DNA from: Gryganskiella cystojenkinii
Taxonomy: Eukaryota > Mortierellomycota > Mortierellomycetes > Mortierellales > Mortierellaceae
Assembly (NCBI GenBank): GCA_015852425.1
Contig: JAAAIG010000929.1
Location: 1 to 14,512 of the forward strand
Direction: 5' to 3'
Length of the DNA stretch: 14,512 nucleotides
Shown here: piece after piece, positions 1-13,653 of the stretch
Position numbering within the stretch: the first letter of the stretch is position 1
Layout: every line of letters begins with the position of its first letter
Notes under the pieces: generated by a model
Seen by the model: only the letters and a program-made list of their open reading frames with translations
The model's database searches: none
What the model was told of the DNA's origin: nothing
Program-made: the position numbers and the translations under genes

Positions 1-3000
1 AGGTGCTCAAAGTCAAGAATGTTGATGAAGAACGTCTGAGAACCAAACGCGACGCAGTGAAACGAACTGAACGCGGACGAACCATGGCGCCTCAGACAGT
101 TTGTGCAAATGCGACACTCATGATTGAACCAAATCATGGTGTGGCTGCAGGTACATGGGCCGCAGACGACGTAGCCCGCCAAATGAGAGAGCAGAAGAAG
201 CGAGAAAAATGGGCCTCCCTCCAAGAATACGTTCGGATCGTTGATGAGAACTTTGACGAGCTATGGGCCAAGGCGGTCAAGAAGAATCAGTCCGAGAAAG
301 GCCCAGAACCAAAGAACAAGGCACCAGATACCAAGCTGCGGACAGTATCAGTGACACTCGACAAAGTTCTTCGGAAAGATTTTTCAGAGGAAGCCAAGGC
401 AACAATCAAGCAACTACTTGTCACCAAGCAGGCAAAGATGTCGTCCCATGTGGATGAGATCCAATCAGCCATCGCTATGGCACAACTTGTGGTCAGTGAA
501 TGAAATGAATTTGTGGCGTTAAGGCAATTTGAAAGAATCGGGTTTTGACTGTGCTTGCTCCTTATGACTTGTAGGTTGTCCAAGGACAATTCCATCCGAA
601 CCAAGACGCCTGCAACGAGTTTGATATCTGCGACATCCTCCCAGAGACCTTTGTGATCCGTGATGACGGTCTTCGGGATAGTCATTCGATCAGAGTCCTG
701 TTGTATCAGATGACTTTCAATCAAACATGAGGAGATACTGCGGCGAGGACATGAAGAGAACGACTTACGAAAAGGACAGCGTAGCCCTCTTTTCCGACGA
801 CTGTATCCAGTATATCGCCACGCGTCTAGTCCGAGATGTCCCTGAGAGGGCTGCGCCGAACAAAAAGCAAAAGCAGAGTAATGACGATCACGACCGTGAT
901 GACGATGAAGATCTGGACCCGAATGATAGCGACGTTGAGAAACCAGACGAAGAGGACGACGATGACAATGTCGAGGCTGGCTCAAGTTCTCTTGCAGGAT
1001 CATCTTTCTCGACAGGCATCAAACGTCCTGCCATTGTGAATAATCCTCCAAAGTCTTTGAACCACCCGCTGTGGAACAAGCTGGCTTTTATTGTTCGAGA
1101 GGAGTGGGCAGGCGACGCTGGATATGTCACGAATGCCACAAGCCCAAAGGGACTGTCCCTAACACGAACAGAGCTCATTGGGACGATTGCCACCAATTAC
1201 AAGAACATTTGGAAGCCCAAGATGTATCTCGACCTCAAGCGAGCGGTTGTCCGTTGTCTATTACGGATCCATCTTCGACCTCTTGGAGAGGAGCGCTACA
1301 GGGACCGAAAGAAGAAATATGCCGCGAAAAAAGTCTCAAAAGCAGCGGAAAAGCTGAAAAGTCCATACGTGCGTCGAAAAGCCCACCGCTGGACAATCAA
1401 GAAGCTCCTTGTTCAGCTGGACGAGGCTATCAGTTCCTGTACGGCAACCTGGGATGGCAAGACGTTGAATATGAGAGATCGTCCGATCCTGCAAGGACAA
1501 CAATCTCGGATTGCCAGAGTCAAGAACATCATCAAGATGCTCAGGGTCGTCAGCAACAAGATCGAAGTCGACAACAGGGATATCGAAAACATGGACAGAG
1601 TCGTTGATGACAGTGATGACTTTGACATGTTGGAGCTAGCGCAGGAAGAAGATGACTTTGATTTTCTTGCCGAAAACGATGCCCCAGACGAAGATGATCT
1701 TGTTGCGGCAGCAGCGGAAGATGCACATGACGATGCAGACTCTGAACAAGTGAAAGACGCAACAGGTATGAAGATCACAGCGTCATGAGGCTCTATCACG
1801 GTTTTAGATGGCATTCTAAAATTCTATATTTCGTCTAGTAGATGTTCTGACTCCCGAACCATCAGCAAAACATCTTCGAGGCCTGGAGGCTGTAACCTGT
1901 CTTTTACTTGACACAGCTGACTGCCCCCCTCAGGTCACACCAGATATCGTCCGAGGTCATCTATTCGAGGCAGAAAAGTTCAATGGTGCCGAGATCAATG
2001 TGGTCGCTGACATTGTCAACAAGCTCAGACCCTATACCCCGAAACGAGATGAGGATGACAAGATCCATGGTCACGTCCTCATTATGGGACCATTTTGCCT
2101 TCTGGCGAACAGCCTGCTGCGGTCTATGGGATACTCTGACTTTACACGCCGATTGTTCCCCTTATCGTCATGTGGTAAAAGCCATCCGATCCCACTGAGT
2201 CCCATCAGTACTTGCGAGGTACTGTGTTCAGCCGAGCCTGGGCACTTTGACGTCAAGAAGGGCGGAATGGTTGTGTCGAACGTGCGCCAAGCCAGAAAGA
2301 ACGAGAGGGCTATTCTAGGTGCCTTTTTTGACTTGGAGGCCATATTCGGCATATGCAGGCAACACCACCTTCTGTTTGAAGACCGGTAATTATTTCAATG
2401 TTGCTATGGTTTCTCAAGGCGTAGTGCATTCGCCATGTAGAATCACTTATTCACATTTGCATTGTAGCACTTTACTACAACTGTGAACTAACAAACCCTT
2501 CAAACCCTTTTTAATGGTTGTGAACTATAGACTTCAGTATGTCGATCCATGGACTGTGCAGATCCTGGGCTCAAAGATAAAAGTCGACACAGTGGAAGAT
2601 GTCTGGTCTGAGAAGAAAAAAAAGCACATCCTGCCGTCGGCGTCCTCTAAACATCCTACGTGCCAACAGGATCTCATCCAATCTGGGATATCGGCAGAGA
2701 TGGCTGAAGAGCGTGCACGAGAGGTGGAGGAGACTTTGAAGGGGAAAATTCGCACACTTCAACAACTCAACCGCATGGTGACAAAGCAGGGGAATCAACA
2801 ACGTCTCTTAAGTATTGGCCTTCAGGAAAAGCTGGCGCTTCGAAAGACCGCTACTGCCCCTATGGACGCCGATTATGGCACTCTGGACCATATGGACTTG
2901 GATGAATCAGCAGGACGTATGGACATGGGTGTTGATTACTCTGAGAATAACCCAGAACCGACGACTGAAGAGTGTATCCAGAGAGCCTACAAGGAGTTGG

Positions 3001-4684
3001 ACGACCAACGGAACCTTGTCCAACAAACTCGAGCCTCCATTCTTCCATTCAAACTCGAGATCAAAAACCTCAAGGAGGAAAAATACGCATACAACAAATT
3101 CTCAAGAGACAAGAGGAGTGCATCAATGCCTTCAACATCGCGCCCCAATACTAAAGGGAAACGAAAGTCAGCCGCAACAGCACAATCCAGTCTCGCTACG
3201 AGTACCAGTAGCGCCGGTGTCACAGCCAGTCAATCCAGCTCTTCAGGTTCGGCCAAGTCCCCGTACACGTCAACGCCCTCGGGAGCACGGCCAGGATCCA
3301 TGGACTATGTCGAGGCAACGTGTATCAAGGAGCTCAGAAAGGACATTGAGGAAAATAACAGGGTAAATGTCCGCAAGATCACTCTGGTCCCTGGAGGGAC
3401 TGACCCAGGGGCAAAAACTCTCTTCGAGACCGTTGTCGTATCAGAAGCGACCCTCATCAAGCTTCAAAATCGATTCCAGTTACTGTCAGAAGACGCTGGA
3501 GACTCACCCGATGACGCCATCGCTGATCAGACCGACTTTGAACAAGCATTGGAAGTGAGCAGGAAGGAGGCGCTCGCTAAGATTAAAATCCCCGATACCT
3601 TCAAAACGACCGTACGCCGTATTCGCCATTTGTCAGGCCTGAATCGACACACTAGACACCGAAAGCAGGCTCTAGAGAAAAACCAGCACATCGGATCTGT
3701 GTACACCGAGTTGGGTAAAACTTCTCCTTACTTGGCAAGGACCATCACCGAACTCAAGACCGCCACCACGGATCGCCGAGAAGCGAGAGAACAGGTCCAT
3801 GCTTTTGAGCATTCCAACAGCATGGCCAGAAACAGCCGCAACACCAAACGACGGCTGAAGCGTACTTATGATCATGTTGCTTCCAAGGAGAGGCAGGCTT
3901 TCAAGAAAACAGGTCAAGGTAAGCCTAGTGCTCCAACTCTGAAGACTGTATCATCAGCCATTTTTAATGCAAGGACATTGTCCCGCTCACATCGTCATCA
4001 TTATTATCATCATTATCATCATCACCGGCAGCAGCACCACCCCTTTCGCACACTCAGATTCATCCCAATGGTTTCTGCACCTCGTGTCAAACCCACCACC
4101 GACCAGAGCTGATTGTCGACCTGTCCCATCCAACCAAGAAACGCCTTGTCCTGAAACACCTCAGCAACTGTCCACGGTCTCTGCCAAAGGTCATTCCACT
4201 GTTTTTCCACGGAGCAGCAGGCATGGGGGTTGGATCGAGGCTAAAGGGGAACGTGAAGATGGGAGGGAACGAAATCCCTCATAGACACATGCACTTTGGA
4301 CCAGTCTGCAAGACAAACGAGCACAACTCTTCAAAAACATGTCCCTTCTGTTTCCAACCCACCCGGCTGGCTCGAGCTCGGAGGATGAGGGAAGGGAAAA
4401 TGAAGCTTTGTCGGGTAAACGGAGCGGTCGAATGCACAAATTCAGAGTGTATATCATATCGCTGTGGATATACGATCAGGGGCCGTGACAGTAATGCGGC
4501 TCTGAACATTGCGATCGCAGGCTATTCTCAGCTCACCTTGTCAGACCGAACCACACTCGCTCCATTCTCTACAACCACCAAGCGACCGTGGTCGCGCCCA
4601 CTTACCAGCACCAGCTCCTCCTTGACTGGAAACAACCTTCCGAGTCCATCCAAGCGATGCGATGACGAACTAAACTTAGTTTAG
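1..4684 (+). CDS. Fanzor (eukaryotic TnpB-like, RNA-guided DNA nuclease), large, multi-exon, 5'-partial
   Basis: Family role: Fanzors are nuclear RNA-guided DNA endonucleases descended from TnpB; they use a guide (omega) RNA encoded next to their own gene. Proposed exons: <1-491, 575-about 690, about 694-1765, 1839-2385, 2531-3918 and 4032 (or 4035)-4684, about 1,420 residues. All junctions except the one near 690 keep the frame with GT..AG introns. Order of parts: helical N-terminus (TLDKVLRKDF); long acidic stretches at 885-1000 and 1600-1760; a conserved-looking block ending GAFFDLEAIFGICRQHHLLF (about 2320-2380); coiled-coil-like region; Ser/Thr-rich basic linker with KGKRK (about 3120-3300); RuvC-I GGTDPGAKT (Asp codon 3402-3404); RuvC-II TNEHNSSKTC (Glu codon 4319-4321); zinc ribbon CPFC...CTNSEC; RuvC-III RDSNAALNIAIAG (Asp codon 4487-4489). 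The frame is open to base 1; an ATG in good context lies at 84. Odd: unusually long, and the frame changes at 682-727, so it may be a pseudogene. Family is confident from the motif set; intactness and start are not. Confidence 0.85.
492..574 (+). other. Fanzor intron 1 (83 bp)
   Basis: Donor GTCAGT at 492, acceptor TTGTAG ending at 574. Removing it joins complete codons (AQLV then VVQGQFHPN) and avoids the stop at 501-503. The length is typical of the other introns in this window. Confidence 0.7.
1766..1838 (+). other. Fanzor intron (73 bp)
   Basis: Donor GTATGA at 1766, acceptor TCGTCTAG ending at 1838. Splicing after the first base of a codon joins KDATV to DVLTPEP and opens an uninterrupted frame of about 180 codons to 2385. 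The later pyrimidine-rich acceptor at 1933 would instead lead quickly to a stop. Confidence 0.65.
2386..2530 (+). other. Fanzor intron (145 bp)
   Basis: Donor GTAATT at 2386, acceptor AACTATAG ending at 2530. The split Arg codon (CG/A) is restored and joins HLLFEDR to LQYVDPWTV. It skips the stop at 2387-2389. Confidence 0.75.
3919..4031 (+). other. Fanzor last intron, containing an ATC/ATT triplet tract
   Basis: Donor GTAAGC at 3919. Acceptor is CGGCAG ending at 4031, or CAG ending at 4034; both keep frame. The more obvious CACTCAG ending at 4057 is in the wrong phase. Splicing connects the exon that carries RuvC-I to the exon that carries RuvC-II, the zinc ribbon and RuvC-III. The unspliced frame stays open until TGA at 4110-4112. 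Confidence 0.7.
3990..4025 (+). repeat. ATC/ATT imperfect triplet repeat
   Basis: About a dozen consecutive ATC or ATT triplets (from ATCGTCATC to ATCATCACC) lie inside the last Fanzor intron. Read in the upstream frame they would give a His/Tyr-rich string. Such a tract is prone to length changes and may act as the poly-pyrimidine-like part of the acceptor. Confidence 0.85.
4670..4684 (+). repeat. Short hairpin ending exactly at the Fanzor stop codon
   Basis: CTAAAC (4670-4675), loop TTA, GTTTAG (4679-4684): a perfect 6-bp stem whose last three bases are the TAG stop. Omega RNAs of this family usually start near the 3' end of the gene, so it could belong to one, but a stem this short can be chance. 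Confidence 0.5.
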
Positions 4685-4952
4685 ATTACGTAAGTATTCT
4701 CAGGCCAAATTGTTTCTGTTCCGTCAGAGGTGCTGAGACCTGGGATAATAATAATACTTATTATATTGTTTATTTTATTTTTCTTTTGTTGACAGACACT
4801 GTACCGCCTTGTGTGAGTCGAACAAGCCACCGTATGGCCCATGCTCCATTGCGCGAAACTCTTTTTTTTTGTCCGCACACACATTGCAACGACTCGACTT
4901 TTTTACAACACATCTCTTCATCAAAACACTCGGCTTGGCTACTCCTTTCAAA
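4685..4952. other. Spacer between Fanzor stop and SmB start; expected site of omega RNA and SmB promoter
   Basis: 268 bp with no credible gene. It holds an AGGT/ACCT short stem at about 4729-4742, an AT-rich inverted repeat ATAATAA-TAC-TTATTAT at about 4746-4764 (possible 3' end processing of the Fanzor transcript), a T-rich stretch at 4764-4790 and a T run at 4861-4870. The SmB promoter must lie here or in the 3' part of the Fanzor gene. No convincing terminal inverted repeat or target-site duplication was recognised, and the left end of any element is outside the window. Confidence 0.5.
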
Positions 4953-6254: not shown

Positions 6255-6869
6255 ATCGCCCAAAGGAATACAAATATTTTTTTTCACTAATGTCATAGGA
6301 CATATCCTCCAACAAGTTCTCGGCAAGGCTATTCCAAATGATGGTTTCTTCAACAATCGGATCGCGCAAGGTTAAGCTCTAGGGGGTTGCTGCGACTGAA
6401 TATAAGAGGAGAACTAAAAAAAGAGGGAAAGAGAGACTGAAGGAGTGTGTCTTTTTGGCTGATATCTAGATGAGCCGACTGGTCATATGCAATCTCGCTT
6501 GTATTTTCGAACAGGGCTGGCTAAGATGGAAACGATCGAATCTCTTCTCTGAGATTCTCATTTATCCCGAGATCCCTTTGTGGGAAAGAATACAACAGAA
6601 AACGTTTTTTTTTTTTCTTTTTCTATTTGCACTCACTCTGCACTAGTAGAGAGATAGCGCGATATCGCCCTCCTCTTGAACGGTCGTCCCCCATCCATTG
6701 TTCGGCGATCACTTTTTTGTCTCCGCATACCTCTCTCTTTTTTTTATTTTATTTTATTGTTTATTTTGATCTACGCCTTTGCCTCCCCCTCTTCTCCCTC
6801 CCACCCTCATAACCCCCTCTCACCTCCTCAGTTACCGTCCCTCGCATTACTCGTTTTCCCCCAAAAAAA
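6255..6869. other. Intergenic: SmB 3' UTR and leader of the Ser-rich gene
   Basis: 615 bp without a supported gene. The left half is the SmB 3' region. The right half has T runs (about 6605-6617, 6731-6765) and a long CT-rich stretch (6780-6835) just before the next ATG, which is typical of fungal leaders and promoters. Small open frames here are low-complexity translations of the CT tract and were not called. Confidence 0.6.
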
Positions 6870-9281
6870 ATGGTGTTCGCGAACAGTCTTGCGGCACGCA
6901 TGTTCGCAAAGATAAAACAACAACTCCTTCCTTTAAACCAACAACCCCCTTCAATTCACCCAGTACTCAACAGTCCAGAGGCACAAAAAGATGCATTCCC
7001 CATGGCCCTGACGAATGTCGATGCACATGAAGTTGCTCCACAGCTGGGCAACTATCTCATTCACCCATTCGACTTTGAAACTCCACAGACACTCACTCAA
7101 AAGAAGGTTGCACAAAAAAAAGTGCGCAACCATGCCCTTGTTGATCCGCAGTCACAGTCGCAATCTCACCAGGACCACAAGCATCAATACCAACACGAGC
7201 CTCAACACCAACCTCAGTCATACCCGCCGCAAATAGGATCCCTGGAAGCCTGCCCAGATCCAGCAGATATTGATCCTTATGGTCTGGGTATTGAACTGAG
7301 CAAGCGCCTTGCCGCCAGTCTACCGTCCCTTCCAGATGATACAAATACCGACAATGAAATCGATGGTCTGCACCACCAAGCTGTGACCATGGCTCTGTCC
7401 TCCCATGGACATCGACCCGAACTAGACGACAGACGCGATACCAGACGCCAAAGTACTGGCAACCTTAATACCCACCACCGTATCCAGCAACACCAATACC
7501 ATCACCAGCATTCTACTACCGCCACTATTGCTAGCGTTGGTCTGCAGCAAAGCCATAGTCTTAACCACCTCCCTTCCGCCTCGTCCTCTTTTTCTTCTGA
7601 ACAATCAAAACGGGAACGTCTTCGCGACTATGCCAAGGTCTTTCCACTGGTTCGCAGAAACACCGGTAGTGCGCACGAGCATCTGAACGGCCGAAACTCA
7701 CCGTTCATGCGCTCTCGCGAGGTCATTGCAAGCAACAGTAACAGCTTGGTGGCATCACCTGCTATTGTCAGTAGCACCTTCTCACCCACCGTCTCAACAC
7801 CGACCACCCCTCTCTCTCGTGGTGGCATCGGCTATATGGGTAACCAGACTTTGAAGGCCCTAAATACGATCCCCAGATCTGCTTCCATGGGGTACATTGC
7901 GGCTGTCAACAACATGAACGCCAATAACTGTAATGCAGCAGCTTCGTCATCTGTGTCAGGCTCTACTGTAACCTCCAATCAAGGATCGCCCGTGATAAAT
8001 AACAACAGCAACAACGGATTCAATGACGGTGCGGTGACACCTACGAGTGTGAGGAGCTACCGATCTACGTCTAGTTTCTTTACACCACCTGCCAGTCAGC
8101 AGGTCAGATACCAGAGTCCAGCCGAGGTCAAGGCCGCGGAACAGAGTCTAGACGATCATCTGAAGGCCATTCGTCGTCGATCCTTTGCTGCTGAGGTGAT
8201 GAGCAGTCCTGGAGGTGTGTCCAGCCCGACTTGCATCGATATCACCTCCGAACCGGGTCAAGAGCAGAACGCAGGCTACGACAATAGCGATTTTGGGGGG
8301 CCAGGATCGCCTAGGACCGTCTCTGGAAGCTCTAGCCGCGCTAGTAACTTCCGAATGTCGTTCTCTTCGCCGAACCTGGGCAAGTTGCAAAGACGATCGT
8401 CCCTTGCCCTCAAGTCTGTCTTGAACTCGATTGTGAACTCGCCTGTTGTCTCGGACGATTCCTCTGTGCTTTCGTCTTCCTCATCTTATACGTCCTCGCC
8501 ACCACGATCCGCGACGAGCTCCGCAGAGCCAAACATGCAGAGTGTTGACCAACTACCACCGTTCCAAGAACCTCCGTTACCAGCACAGGACCTTCTCCGA
8601 GCCGAGTACGGCGAGATTTATTCGGATGTGATGCAGCAGAGGCTTTCTTCGGCGGCGGCAACCGGCGAACAGCAACAACCAGGAGGTCTGACGATGATAC
8701 AAGATTTGGACGCGAGGTTGCAACCGTACGCGACGCCTAGTGCCGCAGTCGTTGGTGGCTATCAAACGGGAGACGTTAGAGGTAACGGTGCTCGTTCTCC
8801 TGCTCAAATGCAAAACGCTACACCGTCAATCACACCCCGCAGATCCCGATCAGGGTCGGTTTCATCCGCATGGACTGCCACGACCACATCCAGCGGTTCC
8901 TCCGATTCGACAACTTCCACGAATTCGAACCTAACATCGCTCTCGAACGAGGAGAAGAGAATTTCCACTGGTAGCGGTTACAATAATGCTGCTTCAAAGC
9001 CTCCCGGCCCGCCACCGACATTTTTGAACCGGATCCTGATCAACCAGTATCATAATCACAGCTCCAGCAACAGCCCAAGGCCTCGACTCTCGCTTTTGAG
9101 GAGGGGAAGTTCCAGTGGTCGTATTCATACGACAGATCTGGGAGGAGTCGGTGGAGACAGTGGTAGTGGCAAGCGCAGCACGCGATCTGGAAACACGACG
9201 CCAATCTCAAAAAAGTTTCCGTCTCAGGGCGACTTGTCCAGCTACAGTTGGGACTATCGCCGCGAGTTGCCTGTTGATTAG
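6870..9281 (+). CDS. Ser-rich, probably disordered protein of unknown function (803 aa)
   Basis: A single uninterrupted 2.4-kb frame; ATG at 6870 follows a C-rich leader and an A run (AAAAAAAATGG). I do not recognise a domain. The N-terminus is mildly basic and amphipathic (MVFANSLAARMFAKIKQQ), then comes a His/Gln-rich stretch (about 7150-7230 and 7470-7560) and a short ordered-looking segment (DPYGLGIELSKRLAASLP). The rest is dominated by Ser, Thr, Asn and Pro. Basic-residue phosphosite motifs recur: RRQS, RRNT, RRRS, RRSS, RRGS and PRRSRSGS. The segment PAEVKAAEQSLDDHLKAIRR and the C-terminal SSYSWDYRRELPVD look least disordered. No membrane segment or clear signal peptide is visible. An ATTAAA at about 9409 may be the poly(A) signal. 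It could be a signalling or cell-polarity scaffold, but nothing proves it. The 2.4-kb open frame with consistent codon use makes it a real gene. Confidence 0.82.
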   Translation: MVFANSLAARMFAKIKQQLLPLNQQPPSIHPVLNSPEAQKDAFPMALTNVDAHEVAPQLGNYLIHPFDFETPQTLTQKKVAQKKVRNHALVDPQSQSQSHQDHKHQYQHEPQHQPQSYPPQIGSLEACPDPADIDPYGLGIELSKRLAASLPSLPDDTNTDNEIDGLHHQAVTMALSSHGHRPELDDRRDTRRQSTGNLNTHHRIQQHQYHHQHSTTATIASVGLQQSHSLNHLPSASSSFSSEQSKRERLRDYAKVFPLVRRNTGSAHEHLNGRNSPFMRSREVIASNSNSLVASPAIVSSTFSPTVSTPTTPLSRGGIGYMGNQTLKALNTIPRSASMGYIAAVNNMNANNCNAAASSSVSGSTVTSNQGSPVINNNSNNGFNDGAVTPTSVRSYRSTSSFFTPPASQQVRYQSPAEVKAAEQSLDDHLKAIRRRSFAAEVMSSPGGVSSPTCIDITSEPGQEQNAGYDNSDFGGPGSPRTVSGSSSRASNFRMSFSSPNLGKLQRRSSLALKSVLNSIVNSPVVSDDSSVLSSSSSYTSSPPRSATSSAEPNMQSVDQLPPFQEPPLPAQDLLRAEYGEIYSDVMQQRLSSAAATGEQQQPGGLTMIQDLDARLQPYATPSAAVVGGYQTGDVRGNGARSPAQMQNATPSITPRRSRSGSVSSAWTATTTSSGSSDSTTSTNSNLTSLSNEEKRISTGSGYNNAASKPPGPPPTFLNRILINQYHNHSSSNSPRPRLSLLRRGSSSGRIHTTDLGGVGGDSGSGKRSTRSGNTTPISKKFPSQGDLSSYSWDYRRELPVD

Positions 9282-9764: not shown

Positions 9765-12700
9765 TCATTGGTGAGTAGCCTGCAGCAACTTTTTTTGACG
9801 ACAAATTTCCTCGGCTTGAACCGTCTCTGCCAAAGCAGGACTCACGGTCTGATGGGTCTGCATGGTAAGTGTCGCCGCCGACTGACCGTCCCTGACGATT
9901 TTGTCGATATGACTCCAAAGGACGTAACCAGTTTCACTTGATTCGTTCACAGCCCTTGATGTTGGTGAAACCAAAGACGATCCCTGCTCCCGAGAGAGCT
10001 TGGGACGAACATGGGCCAATTGATGAAGACTGGTAACTACAGACGCGACAAGACTATCGCCAGCCCCGGTCACACTCTCGATCCTCTCGACAGCGTGAGC
10101 TGGGAAATGCTCACATGACACGGTCGTTGTCGTCATCAGTCCTGTGAATCTGCTCAAGACAAAGACGCCTTGGGGACCCAACTTGACAAAGAGAGTTGGG
10201 ATAAATTGAGAGAGCACATAGGCATCTTGAAGAAGAGAATGGTCTCCATCGTGTCCAAAGAAAGGTTTCACTTCTGTTTTCCGCTGCATTAGCGCAGAAA
10301 ACTCCTTGTCGACTGAGGCGAGTTGCTGCTTGCTCAGCAAACTATGTGCTGCCGAGGCCATGGCCTTCAGCTCGTACTCGTTCGGACTCGCAAACTGAAG
10401 TGCATGGCTACTCAGTAGGGTCGTCATGGACTTGTCCAAAGCTCGAGTACACTTGGCAACCGATGTGGGCTCAAAGAAGGCTATCGTAGTCAAGAAAGAG
10501 GCGAGAAAAAAAATGAACAAACTTCCGTATTAGATTCTTTTCATTGATATATTTTGAAATGCAGGGCAGTCAGTTCCTATCACGAAAATTGCCAAATTTC
10601 ACTCACTAAGGATATCTTTGCCTTGACACGTCTCGAGGATGGTCTTTATACAGTCGACAGAGAGGTTTCCATCAAAGCACACGGTTCCCGGGTTATGACG
10701 GGCTATCGCTTCTTTCACCTATGAAGACACGAAGAAGAAACAGAAATTTAAGTACTCAAATTACGAAACTTTATATTTGCTTTCTTTTATGCGGCCTGCT
10801 AGAATGCCAATCATGTGGGGGAGGGGAGGAGGGGTTATTTTGAATATATATACCTTGGTAGATGACAACATCTCAAAAACCTCCATATCAGCGATCGCGG
10901 AGAGTAAGCCTCCACTGGCATCGTGAAGGGCGGTATAGGTGGCCGTTCGAGCTCCGGGGATCGGGATGATTTCATGGTTGTCCTGGAGAAACAGGTGAAA
11001 AAAAAAATGAAAAAAAAAACATTTAAAATTGACATCATCCCCTATGCGACTCCATAACAGCCCCAGATCGCGAACACAAAAGAAGGTCATCATACCATCC
11101 CTCTCCGAGCAAGTTCGCTTGTGAGCCAGGGTCCAAAAAGATCGTCCATAGCATCCTCCTCGTCAAGCTTCCTATTCTTGTCCTTGCTTTTTGTCATTGA
11201 GGCCCCTGCCGCGGACAAATGCTTTCCGCCGACAGCAGACACGAGAATGCAGGACTCGCCAGAGAGCTTCGTGATACCCTCGGCTACATTTCGTCCGACA
11301 CCACCGAGTGCGACCCTCATCAATCCTGGATGGGAACTATTGAGCATAGCAGTTGAAGCCGTGGTGGTCGCTGTGGAGGTGATATCGACCACAGCTCCGC
11401 CTATAACCATTATCTATCAAGTCGAGAGAGGGGACAGAGAAATAAATGAAAAGAACAATAAAATAATCTGATCTGAAATGTGGGAAAAGATGAACAAAGA
11501 AGAAAACGGAACCTATTTTTTTTTTGTTTCTTGATTTTATTGAGATGGCACCCTCGTTCTTTCAGCTTCTCGGAAAAGCTTCCTTCGTTCCTGTCGGTCC
11601 AGATACGTAAGGGGCAGCGAGGCTATACAAAACGCCAATCGCCCTTTGTTCAACTTACAGGTCGTTCTTTGGATGACAGATCTTGCTTCATCCGACGGGC
11701 CGATGTCGAGAAGGAGCGTGTTTGGTTCCAGGGACGTGAATTTATATTCTAATGTATAAAAGGAAAAGAGAAGAAAATGATGAGTTATCTCTGTTTCATA
11801 AAGGTAAAAGCATGCTGAATAAGATCCGTGGCCGAAATTGTATGTTTCCTCACCAGGGTCGACAAGTCCTTTGCAATTCTGGCAGCGACGGATGCGTTTT
11901 GTTTGACAAGGGCAATGTCTATAGCCACAGAGGAAGACATAAACAAGGGAGGAAAGGAATGGGACATGTTATGAAATAGTTTATCAGATGATGCACATTT
12001 GACTCTGAAAGACTTTTTTTCTTTTCTTTTCTCCCGAGACTTACTAGACTTGAGTGAATTTCCTCCCGTTAACTCGTTAACGCGCTTGAGCAAGAATGGG
12101 GTGCTTTCTTTGCCAAAGATACCCTGTTCGCTATTTTGTTGGAAAGGTATAAATGAAACAAGATTGAGTCTATCAGCTTCGGTGTTTTTGTGCACAGGAA
12201 TACCATTCTTACCAGAGTTAACAAGTGCGTTATCATACCTCGATTCCTTCACTGCAAGATCGATAGCCTCACCCACGAGTCGGTCGTCCATGGCGTCTTC
12301 CTCGGCGATGGGGACCCCGATAACGATACCACTTTGTAAATTGATGGAAAGGTTCGCGGCTTTTTTTTTATATATATCCCCACACGACAGTTAGTAATTC
12401 GGTTTTCAATTTGGATGTTCTCGATCCTCTTGTTTCCACTTTTATCAACTCACCAATCAGCTCTGCGACCTCGCGAGGAGTCTCGACGTTGAGCATGCTC
12501 TAAGCCACGTCAAAGGAGGTTATGAGTGTTAGTAAGCGAAAGAGGAGTGTAACTAAGCTATGAAGTACGGTTCACTTGTTGATAAGAGTCTCACCTTGAA
12601 ACCGCTGGTTCGAGTAAAGAATGCTGGGAAATCGGGTGTGGTTCCGTAGGTCGCCACGGTGACTCCCTGGGTTTCCAGAAACTCGAGCGTCTTTCCAATG

Positions 12701-13565
12701 TCCAAGATCGACTTTACACCTGCACAGACGACCGCCACAGGTGTCCGGCCGAGCTCTGTTAAATCCGCGCTTGCATCCAGACCTAAAATGTACAAGGTTG
12801 TTTTTTTTTTCTTAATAAGAATTGGGGACTCGTTTCTAGGAACAGTAGATAGTCTTTACACTGACCGTATTCTAATATATTTTTTTTTTTTGGACTTACT
12901 GTTTTCATATCCTCGGTGAACACCTCCGATGCCTCCGGTTGCAAAGACGTGAATTCCAGCGCGATGAGCGAGGAGCATAGTCGCAGAGACTGTTGTGGCA
13001 CCAGTTTGTTTCTAAATAATGGGCGTTTGTACATTTTCCGTATTGTTTGGTTAGGCATAAAGGTGCGATATAAGAATTAAAAAAGCAGAGCAGTGACCAG
13101 TTCTCCATTTTTTTATACCTTGGCCATGACCACGGCGAGATCTCGTCTGGAAGCCTTGACAGCATCCCTGCCGAGTTTCGCGAGTTTCCGGATCTGCTCC
13201 TGTGATAAACCAATCTGGATCTGACCATCCATGATTGCAATCGTGGCTGGGACGGCACCGTTATCCCGGACAACCTTTTCGACCTCGATCGCGGTCTCGT
13301 AATTTTGAGGGTAGGGCATCCCATGGGAGATGATGGTACTCTCGAGTGCGACCAGGGGTTTGTTGGACTCGAGCGCGGATCGGACTTCATCCGAAAAGGT
13401 GAGGGTCGAGAGAGTGGAGAGCTGACGACGAGAGTGGTGGATGAGCGGTGATGTTGAAAGGGAGGAGGAAAGCCACATCCGAGGTGAACTCCGAGTCCAT
13501 GGTTGGGTTGCATAAGTTGGTTTGGGTGCCTGATGCAGACGAAGAGAGATTGCGGCCCGTAACAT
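9765..13565 (-). CDS. Bifunctional pseudouridine-5'-phosphate glycosidase / PfkB-type pseudouridine kinase
   Basis: Breaks down pseudouridine: the kinase makes pseudouridine 5'-phosphate with ATP and the glycosidase splits it to uracil and ribose 5-phosphate. Twelve exons in transcript order: 13565-13119, 13011-12900, 12782-12595, 12499-12454, 12359-12239, 12130-12045, 11918-11854, 11748-11659, 11413-11096, 10982-10854, 10718-10607, 10480-9765; sum 2,430 bp, 809 residues, all phases matching. N-terminal glycosidase: [48 protein letters not shown] (the Asp and Lys spacing matches the known catalytic pair, Lys forming the Schiff base; His in GVHRG also kept), [19 protein letters not shown]-terminal kinase: [43 protein letters not shown] with the catalytic Asp of GAGD. 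The first 55 or so residues are Arg/Ser-rich without acids, a likely mitochondrial presequence; an upstream in-frame ATG at 13646 would hide it. The linker exon 11748-11659 is least certain. Confidence 0.93.
11659..11748 (-). other. Linker exon between glycosidase and kinase domains
   Basis: Acceptor ACATTAG before 11748 and donor GTAAGT at 11658 enclose exactly 30 codons in phase (contains [19 protein letters not shown]), joining STL of the glycosidase to [11 protein letters not shown] of the kinase. No homology is expected for a linker, so the call rests on splice sites and phase. The following intron (11414-11658, 245 bp) is the longest in the gene. Confidence 0.6.
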
Positions 13566-13626
13566 TTTGAACGGGATGAGAAAGAGGGAGATGGATGATG
13601 TGAAATAGAGAAGACAAAAAAAGATG

Positions 13627-13653
13627 TTACTTTGTTGGAGATGCAATGGTCAT
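13627..13653 (-). promoter_or_regulatory. Possible upstream ORF in the leader of the pseudouridine gene
   Basis: ATG at 13653 to TAA at 13627 gives an 8-codon peptide (MTIASPTK), 61 bp before the proposed start at 13565. It matters only if transcription starts upstream of 13653, which cannot be seen. Confidence 0.25.

Follow-up and report, generated by a model that had tools for sequence, protein, structure and literature searches.

Does the large gene at the left end of a contig of the fungus Gryganskiella cystojenkinii (Mortierellaceae) encode a Fanzor, a eukaryotic RNA-guided nuclease of the TnpB/Fanzor superfamily, and if so, of which kind? The window analysed here is the entire contig (C986; 14,512 bases) of a genome of 35 Mb in 1,050 contigs, and the spliced gene in question lies at 3-4684 on its + strand. 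NCBI lists the product under Gryganskiella cystojenkinii as BGZ83_011783, a hypothetical protein, and its kinship with Fanzor/TnpB is not annotated. A sequence-only reading of the same DNA had proposed an intron-rich, unusually large and perhaps intact Fanzor in an early-diverging fungus; the host, a member of the Mortierellaceae, agrees with the last of these claims. We give a probability of roughly 75% that its product is a very large and divergent protein of the TnpB/Fanzor superfamily, with a signature closest to that of Fanzor1 and working by the mechanism proposed below. Judged by sequence comparison, it is part of a distinct clade of giant proteins and is not a standard Fanzor1.

The assignment starts from a string of motifs, and those that the earlier reading had named (RuvC-I, zinc ribbon and RuvC-III) are indeed on the + strand: GGTDPGAKT (Asp codon at 3402-3404), NEHNSSKTCPFC (Glu codon at 4319-4321, first Cys pair at 4340-4351), CTNSEC (4433-4450) and GRDSNAALNIAIAG (Asp codon at 4487-4489). 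An excerpt of PMC3627910 gives the TnpB/Fanzor motif as D-X(125,275)-[TS][TS]-X-X-C4 zinc finger-X(5,50)-RD. The window protein follows it in order (D1033 of DPG, 269 residues, SSKTCPFC, CTNSEC and RD), and the string appeared in none of 2000 shuffles of this protein. Fanzors, as described in an excerpt of PMC10711439, have DPG at RuvC-I and, unlike most TnpB proteins, a glutamate six residues ahead of the zinc finger; the window has both marks, its glutamate standing six residues ahead of the first zinc cysteine. Fanzor1 proteins carry two extra conserved residues, G500 and E536, according to an excerpt of PMC3627910. By our own count these are 36 positions apart, and the window likewise has a glycine 36 positions before the relocated glutamate, as do 10 of 13 family rows (a count that excludes family sequences missing one end of the region). 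All 13 rows have this glutamate, the zinc motif and RD, and 11 of them have DPG, the remaining two reading DYG and DRG; with these two forms included, each of the 13 keeps the D, E and D residues, as read by eye. Across an alignment of 14 rows the glutamate, the four zinc cysteines and RD do not vary.

Profile comparisons point to the same superfamily. A 7-row family profile compared with PDB (177,635 distinct sequences) had SpuFz1 as its top match (E 0.0086), and a 14-row profile run against the same set again placed SpuFz1 at the top (E 0.0034); two solved Fanzors are found among the nine PDB sequences listed for the latter profile, the second (PpFz1) only at E 1.7 and amid noise. Within the genome, a 15-row family profile matched a profile of six conventional TnpB/Fanzor-like loci with a probability of 96.3 (0.5 for the reversed control) over 163 columns, which span the helix before RuvC-II and the zinc ribbon, up to RuvC-III; with four conventional loci the probability was 94.8 (reversed control 0.09). 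In PDB only profiles gave matches: a single-sequence phmmer search with the RuvC part returned nothing relevant. Searches of PHROGs and NCBIfam returned nothing useful, and none of 60 pattern matches on viral contigs was confirmed. The conventional locus C2, used as a query, found nothing at 1e-6 in a large protein search; against PDB it matched an AI-designed RNA-guided nuclease and TnpB-like entries, all at E 0.055 or worse. The Fanzor identity proposed earlier thus stands at the superfamily level, on motifs and profiles, but not as a plain Fanzor, given the separate clade and a PF07282 score below the cut-off. Of the RuvC motifs, the profile match takes in RuvC-II and RuvC-III, with the zinc ribbon between them, but not RuvC-I.

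As for the gene itself, the exons are joined in frame over four GT-AG introns (83, 73, 145 and 116 nt), so it is intron-rich as claimed, and the size of about 1,420 residues is borne out by 1,420 readable positions (including one placeholder at a break in the frame). The start of the NCBI model lies within exon A; the model keeps the last intron as coding sequence and is without the zinc ribbon and RuvC-III, which are in the last exon. The supposed intactness did not hold. Position 1 is the contig end and the open frame of exon A runs off it, so the 5' end of the gene is missing; furthermore, the frame of exon B is closed by a stop at 728-730, and another frame carries on from about 697. The paralogue on C797 stays in one frame across this region, and two relatives (P0001 and P0005) align through it without a gap, so that we prefer an apparent one-base frameshift near 690-735, either real or a sequencing error, to an intron of about 30 nt. 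Such an intron fits the frame and resembles the choice made by NCBI, but would be very short. The window copy is truncated at the contig edge and probably carries one disabling frameshift (if this is not a sequencing error), and therefore may be a recently damaged member of its family.

The family is old and multi-copy, and the search for further copies that the earlier reading suggested did find them: the last exon of the window gene matches 16 places on 14 contigs of the genome (the window included), five of which contain stop codons, and further family pieces are on C692, C354 and C787. C232 holds a dead copy with 86% DNA identity, and C420 a dead sister (89%) of the copy on C141; a DNA search with the window gene found no identical copy. 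Six family copies end at contig edges (C986, C141, C92, C645, C128 and C692). No terminal inverted repeats or target duplications were identified, a weak negative as the left ends of the copies are mostly missing from the data; for example, the homology between C141 and C420 stops about 125 nt past the C141 stop codon, and their left ends are outside the data. Elsewhere, relatives are found in Entomortierella parvispora, Benniella sp., Mortierella alpina, Jimgerdemannia flammicorona and environmental sets, with seven proteins (the window's own included) collected in one protein search and 14 in another. Three predicted proteins of E. parvispora that have both RuvC-I and RuvC-III are 1,541, 1,570 and 1,686 residues long, and two proteins of this species (P0004 and P0006), encoded on different contigs, share 97% identity over their aligned parts. 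A tree of 29 rows splits 23 family rows from six conventional loci with support of 100/99 (this tree carries a long-branch warning, with C271 and C272 among the rows flagged). The proportion of non-synonymous differences (pN) is 0.16-0.33 against 0.72-0.88 for synonymous ones (pS, near saturation) in all seven pairs compared, one for exon D and six for exon F. At the sequence level this is a clear sign of long-term purifying selection, which applies to the family and not to the recent history of the window copy.

The remainder of the protein has its own features. About 1,000 N-terminal residues have no detected homology. A conserved N-terminal domain, with no relative in PDB or Pfam, is shared by eight rows, and is missing from the window because the contig ends. 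An OTU-like remnant was suspected in this domain, and no support for it was found. In the paralogue on C271 (L022, minus strand), the open frame with the N-terminal domain also encodes an OTU domain (24.8 bits, cut-off 23.3), which matches OTUD3 at E 2.1e-14 once its second half is joined. This OTU cysteine-protease domain sits between the family N-terminal domain and the rest of the protein, and the RuvC-I of C271 reads DRG instead of DPG; a loss of the RuvC-I aspartate was considered and dropped, since DRG lines up with DPG and the aspartate therefore seems to be kept. An extra Cys/His knuckle before RuvC-II is altered in P0015 and was not seen in P0017-P0020, and so is not universal.

Several results weigh against a Fanzor-like nuclease. 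RuvC-I is outside every profile match and rests on the motif, and DPG is inside the published spacing in only seven of the 13 rows (four more have it outside; the six rows without an in-range DPG were read by eye). When the profile was compared with only the pair C625 and C398, the match dropped to 2.6% (reversed control 0.25). The PF07282 zinc domain scores 17.3 bits in the window, below the Pfam cut-off of 26.3 (a detection threshold, not a structural feature); among five relatives, P0001, P0003 and P0004 score 21.2, 15.7 and 18.8 bits, and in the other two the region or the match is missing, while at E up to 0.1 the domain is found in 10 of 14 family rows. Thin full-length profiles (five rows for the giant family and two for the conventional loci) give no N-terminal (WED/REC) alignment, their N-terminal halves matching only in acidic low-complexity stretches; the test is weak because the same profiles score the zinc part at only 7%. 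Neither of two AlphaFold models resolves the RuvC core: the mean predicted local distance difference test score is 60.7 for P0008 (686 residues, 20 rows; its input sequence seems to contain an unspliced intron) and 52.4 for P0006 (1,081 residues, 12 rows), a protein that ends inside the zinc ribbon. The P0008 model has a confident long helical hairpin ahead of RuvC-I (helices at residues 53-103 and 126-187), for which VIA-align gave helical and coiled-coil matches, with no Fanzor among the 50 rows listed, a result that excludes nothing. On the other side, in favour of a Fanzor, Foldseek placed PpFz1 first of 350 matches to P0008, though at E 0.12 and amid coiled coils; it found no match to P0006 at E 0.001 or better. 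The predicted RuvC fold is too uncertain to show or to exclude an RNase H core. Finally, a guide RNA was looked for and none was found: folding of the 3' region has a z of -1.95, a value equalled or bettered by four of 100 shuffles, a comparison of the window with Rfam gave no match, and the level of synonymous change does not fall towards the 3' end.

By homology, the C-terminal RuvC/zinc part of a giant superfamily member would fold as in Fanzor, bind a guide RNA and cut target DNA. The N-terminal part of about 1,000 residues would replace, or add to, the usual WED/REC lobe, and might serve target choice or partner binding. A wider reading, which we advance tentatively and consider doubtful, is that Mortierellaceae and related fungi have an unrecognised class of RNA-guided nucleases with several domains and a length of about 1,500-1,700 residues, double that of known Fanzors. 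These would join a Fanzor catalytic end to a new N-terminal module (in one paralogue also to an OTU deubiquitinase domain), would be kept functional by selection, and would serve genome defence or a drive-like spread of their own copies.

The absence of a guide RNA signal would also fit a RuvC protein adopted by the host, e.g. a DNA-binding protein or structure-specific nuclease that works without a guide and is kept by selection. The long-term purifying selection suits such a role, as do the large new N-terminal part and the OTU domain of one paralogue, but the D, E and D residues are retained throughout the 13 rows, and the scatter of copies, with dead sisters among them, is more suggestive of a family that is mobile or turns over fast; we consider host adoption unlikely. 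Another explanation, implied by the earlier reading, is that the gene is a conventional, intact Fanzor1 of a transposon and merely long. In its favour are the shared motif string and the many copies, of which some are almost dead and others nearly identical (such as P0004 and P0006), but the clade of its own, an N-terminal part without detected relatives, and the frameshift and missing 5' end of the window copy argue against it (so do, weakly, the missing repeats and duplications), and we find it improbable.

Least probable of all, with very little in our view to recommend it, is a zinc-ribbon protein that has no kinship with Fanzor and resembles it superficially. The low Pfam score and uncertain fold model would suit it, and there are weak matches to other zinc families (PF14354 in seven of 14 rows, PF02748 in five), but it leaves unexplained the whole ordered motif missing from every shuffle, the long profile alignment with its clean reversed control, and the presence of both solved Fanzors in the short PDB list, even with the second at E 1.7. 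A giant member of the TnpB/Fanzor superfamily remains our preferred reading.

If the fuller relatives are active, eukaryotic RNA-guided nucleases would extend to more than 1,500 residues with accessory domains, and the family would be a natural case of gains by, or taming of, such enzymes in host genomes. The family also shows that zinc-domain searches at the Pfam cut-off can miss diverged members: in this genome such a search gave 19 loci, with no giant-family locus among them. No Fanzor paper on Mortierella or Mucoromycota, or naming this species, was found in the open-licence literature, and nothing on this family appeared among the papers listed; a 2023 survey of eukaryotic Fanzors, reportedly in Science Advances, may list the clade.

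Table 1. Features of the giant Fanzor-like gene in the window
Feature	Position	Strand	Basis or remark
Exon A, 5' end cut by contig end	3..491	+	open frame up to GT donor at 492; 37% identity with paralogue C797
Intron 1, 83 nt, GT-AG	492..574	+	splice at matching place likely in C797 (by eye)
Exon B, as far as about the frame break	575..697	+	frame and alignment with C797 and relatives
Apparent one-base frameshift, exact place not fixed	690..735	+	stop of the 575 frame at 728-730; C797, P0001 and P0005 read on
Exon C, start approximate	697..1765	+	open frame 682-1788; donor at 1766
Intron 2, 73 nt, GT-AG	1766..1838	+	
Exon D, central conserved block	1839..2385	+	matches at six genome places, window included
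Intron 3, 145 nt, GT-AG	2386..2530	+	
Exon E, helical hairpin region and RuvC-I	2531..3918	+	
Predicted coiled-coil hairpin of long helices, approximate limits	2664..3114	+	mapped by sequence from the confident helices of the P0008 model
RuvC-I motif DPG, catalytic Asp by homology	3402..3410	+	invariant in seven rows of alignment A2
Intron 4, 116 nt, GT-AG	3919..4034	+	NCBI model reads through
Exon F, knuckle, RuvC-II, zinc ribbon, RuvC-III and stop	4035..4684	+	68% identity with C797 over 172 residues
Extra Cys/His knuckle (NGFCTSCQTHH ... NCP), before RuvC-II	4067..4174	+	Cys, Cys, His and Cys invariant in seven rows
Relocated (Fanzor-type) RuvC-II glutamate	4319..4321	+	13/13 rows
Zinc ribbon CPFC ... 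CTNSEC	4340..4450	+	PF07282 17.3 bits, below cut-off
RuvC-III motif RD	4484..4489	+	
Possible 3'-untranslated-region intron directly after stop (GTAAGT ... ACAG), limits approximate	4690..4796	+	similar GTAAGT in C797 and C141

Three paralogues (the window, C797 and C141; loci L017 and L018) have GTAAGT shortly past the stop codon, as seen by eye, which suggests that a possible intron in the 3' untranslated region is common to them. The neighbouring gene had been read as SmB, which is confirmed by an LSM domain of 61.5 bits (cut-off 23.4). Other features of the window include an open frame of 822 codons (6813-9278, + strand) that is rich in Ser, Asn and Gln and has no Pfam match at 0.01, and, at 9768-13649 on the minus strand, part of a PfkB-type kinase together with part of an Indigoidine_A (pseudouridine glycosidase-like) protein; the two share a strand and possibly form one multi-exon gene.

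Compared with known systems, the window gene resembles Fanzor1, as represented by SpuFz1 of Spizellomyces punctatus and PpFz1 of Parasitella parasitica, in the order of DPG, relocated glutamate, zinc ribbon and RD, and its second zinc pair is of the CTNP.C type, as in SpuFz1. It differs in size, in an N-terminal part that could not be aligned and in the extra knuckle: most Fanzor1 proteins have 600-700 residues (excerpt of PMC11423790) and some up to about 800 (excerpt of PMC10711439), against the 1,420 readable residues of the window and 1,541-1,686 in its fuller relatives. Size alone, however, does not set the clade apart, because a conventional locus of the same genome (C37), as joined, already has 835 residues without certain ends. 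The knuckle recalls the FRI domain of PpFz1, a small insert of about 100 residues within RuvC (excerpt of PMC11423790), in being a small domain inserted in the RuvC of a fungal Fanzor, but it has about 35 residues and conserved Cys/His positions. Conventional loci are to be expected in this genome, since Fanzor1 is reported to be widespread in fungi (excerpt of PMC10432273), and 19 TnpB/Fanzor-like loci (C2, C37, C340, C201, C434, C625, C398 and 12 others; ten of them are L037-L046) pass the PF07282 cut-off, on 19 contigs, none of which is a giant-family contig. Three or more types can be told apart among these loci, and some contain long open frames (translations were viewed for about half). 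They share with the giant family the relocated glutamate and the zinc motif (six out of six loci tested) as well as the profile homology; however, all 19 pass the cut-off in a search that gave no giant-family locus, and the conventional loci in the tree fall on the side opposite to the giant family.

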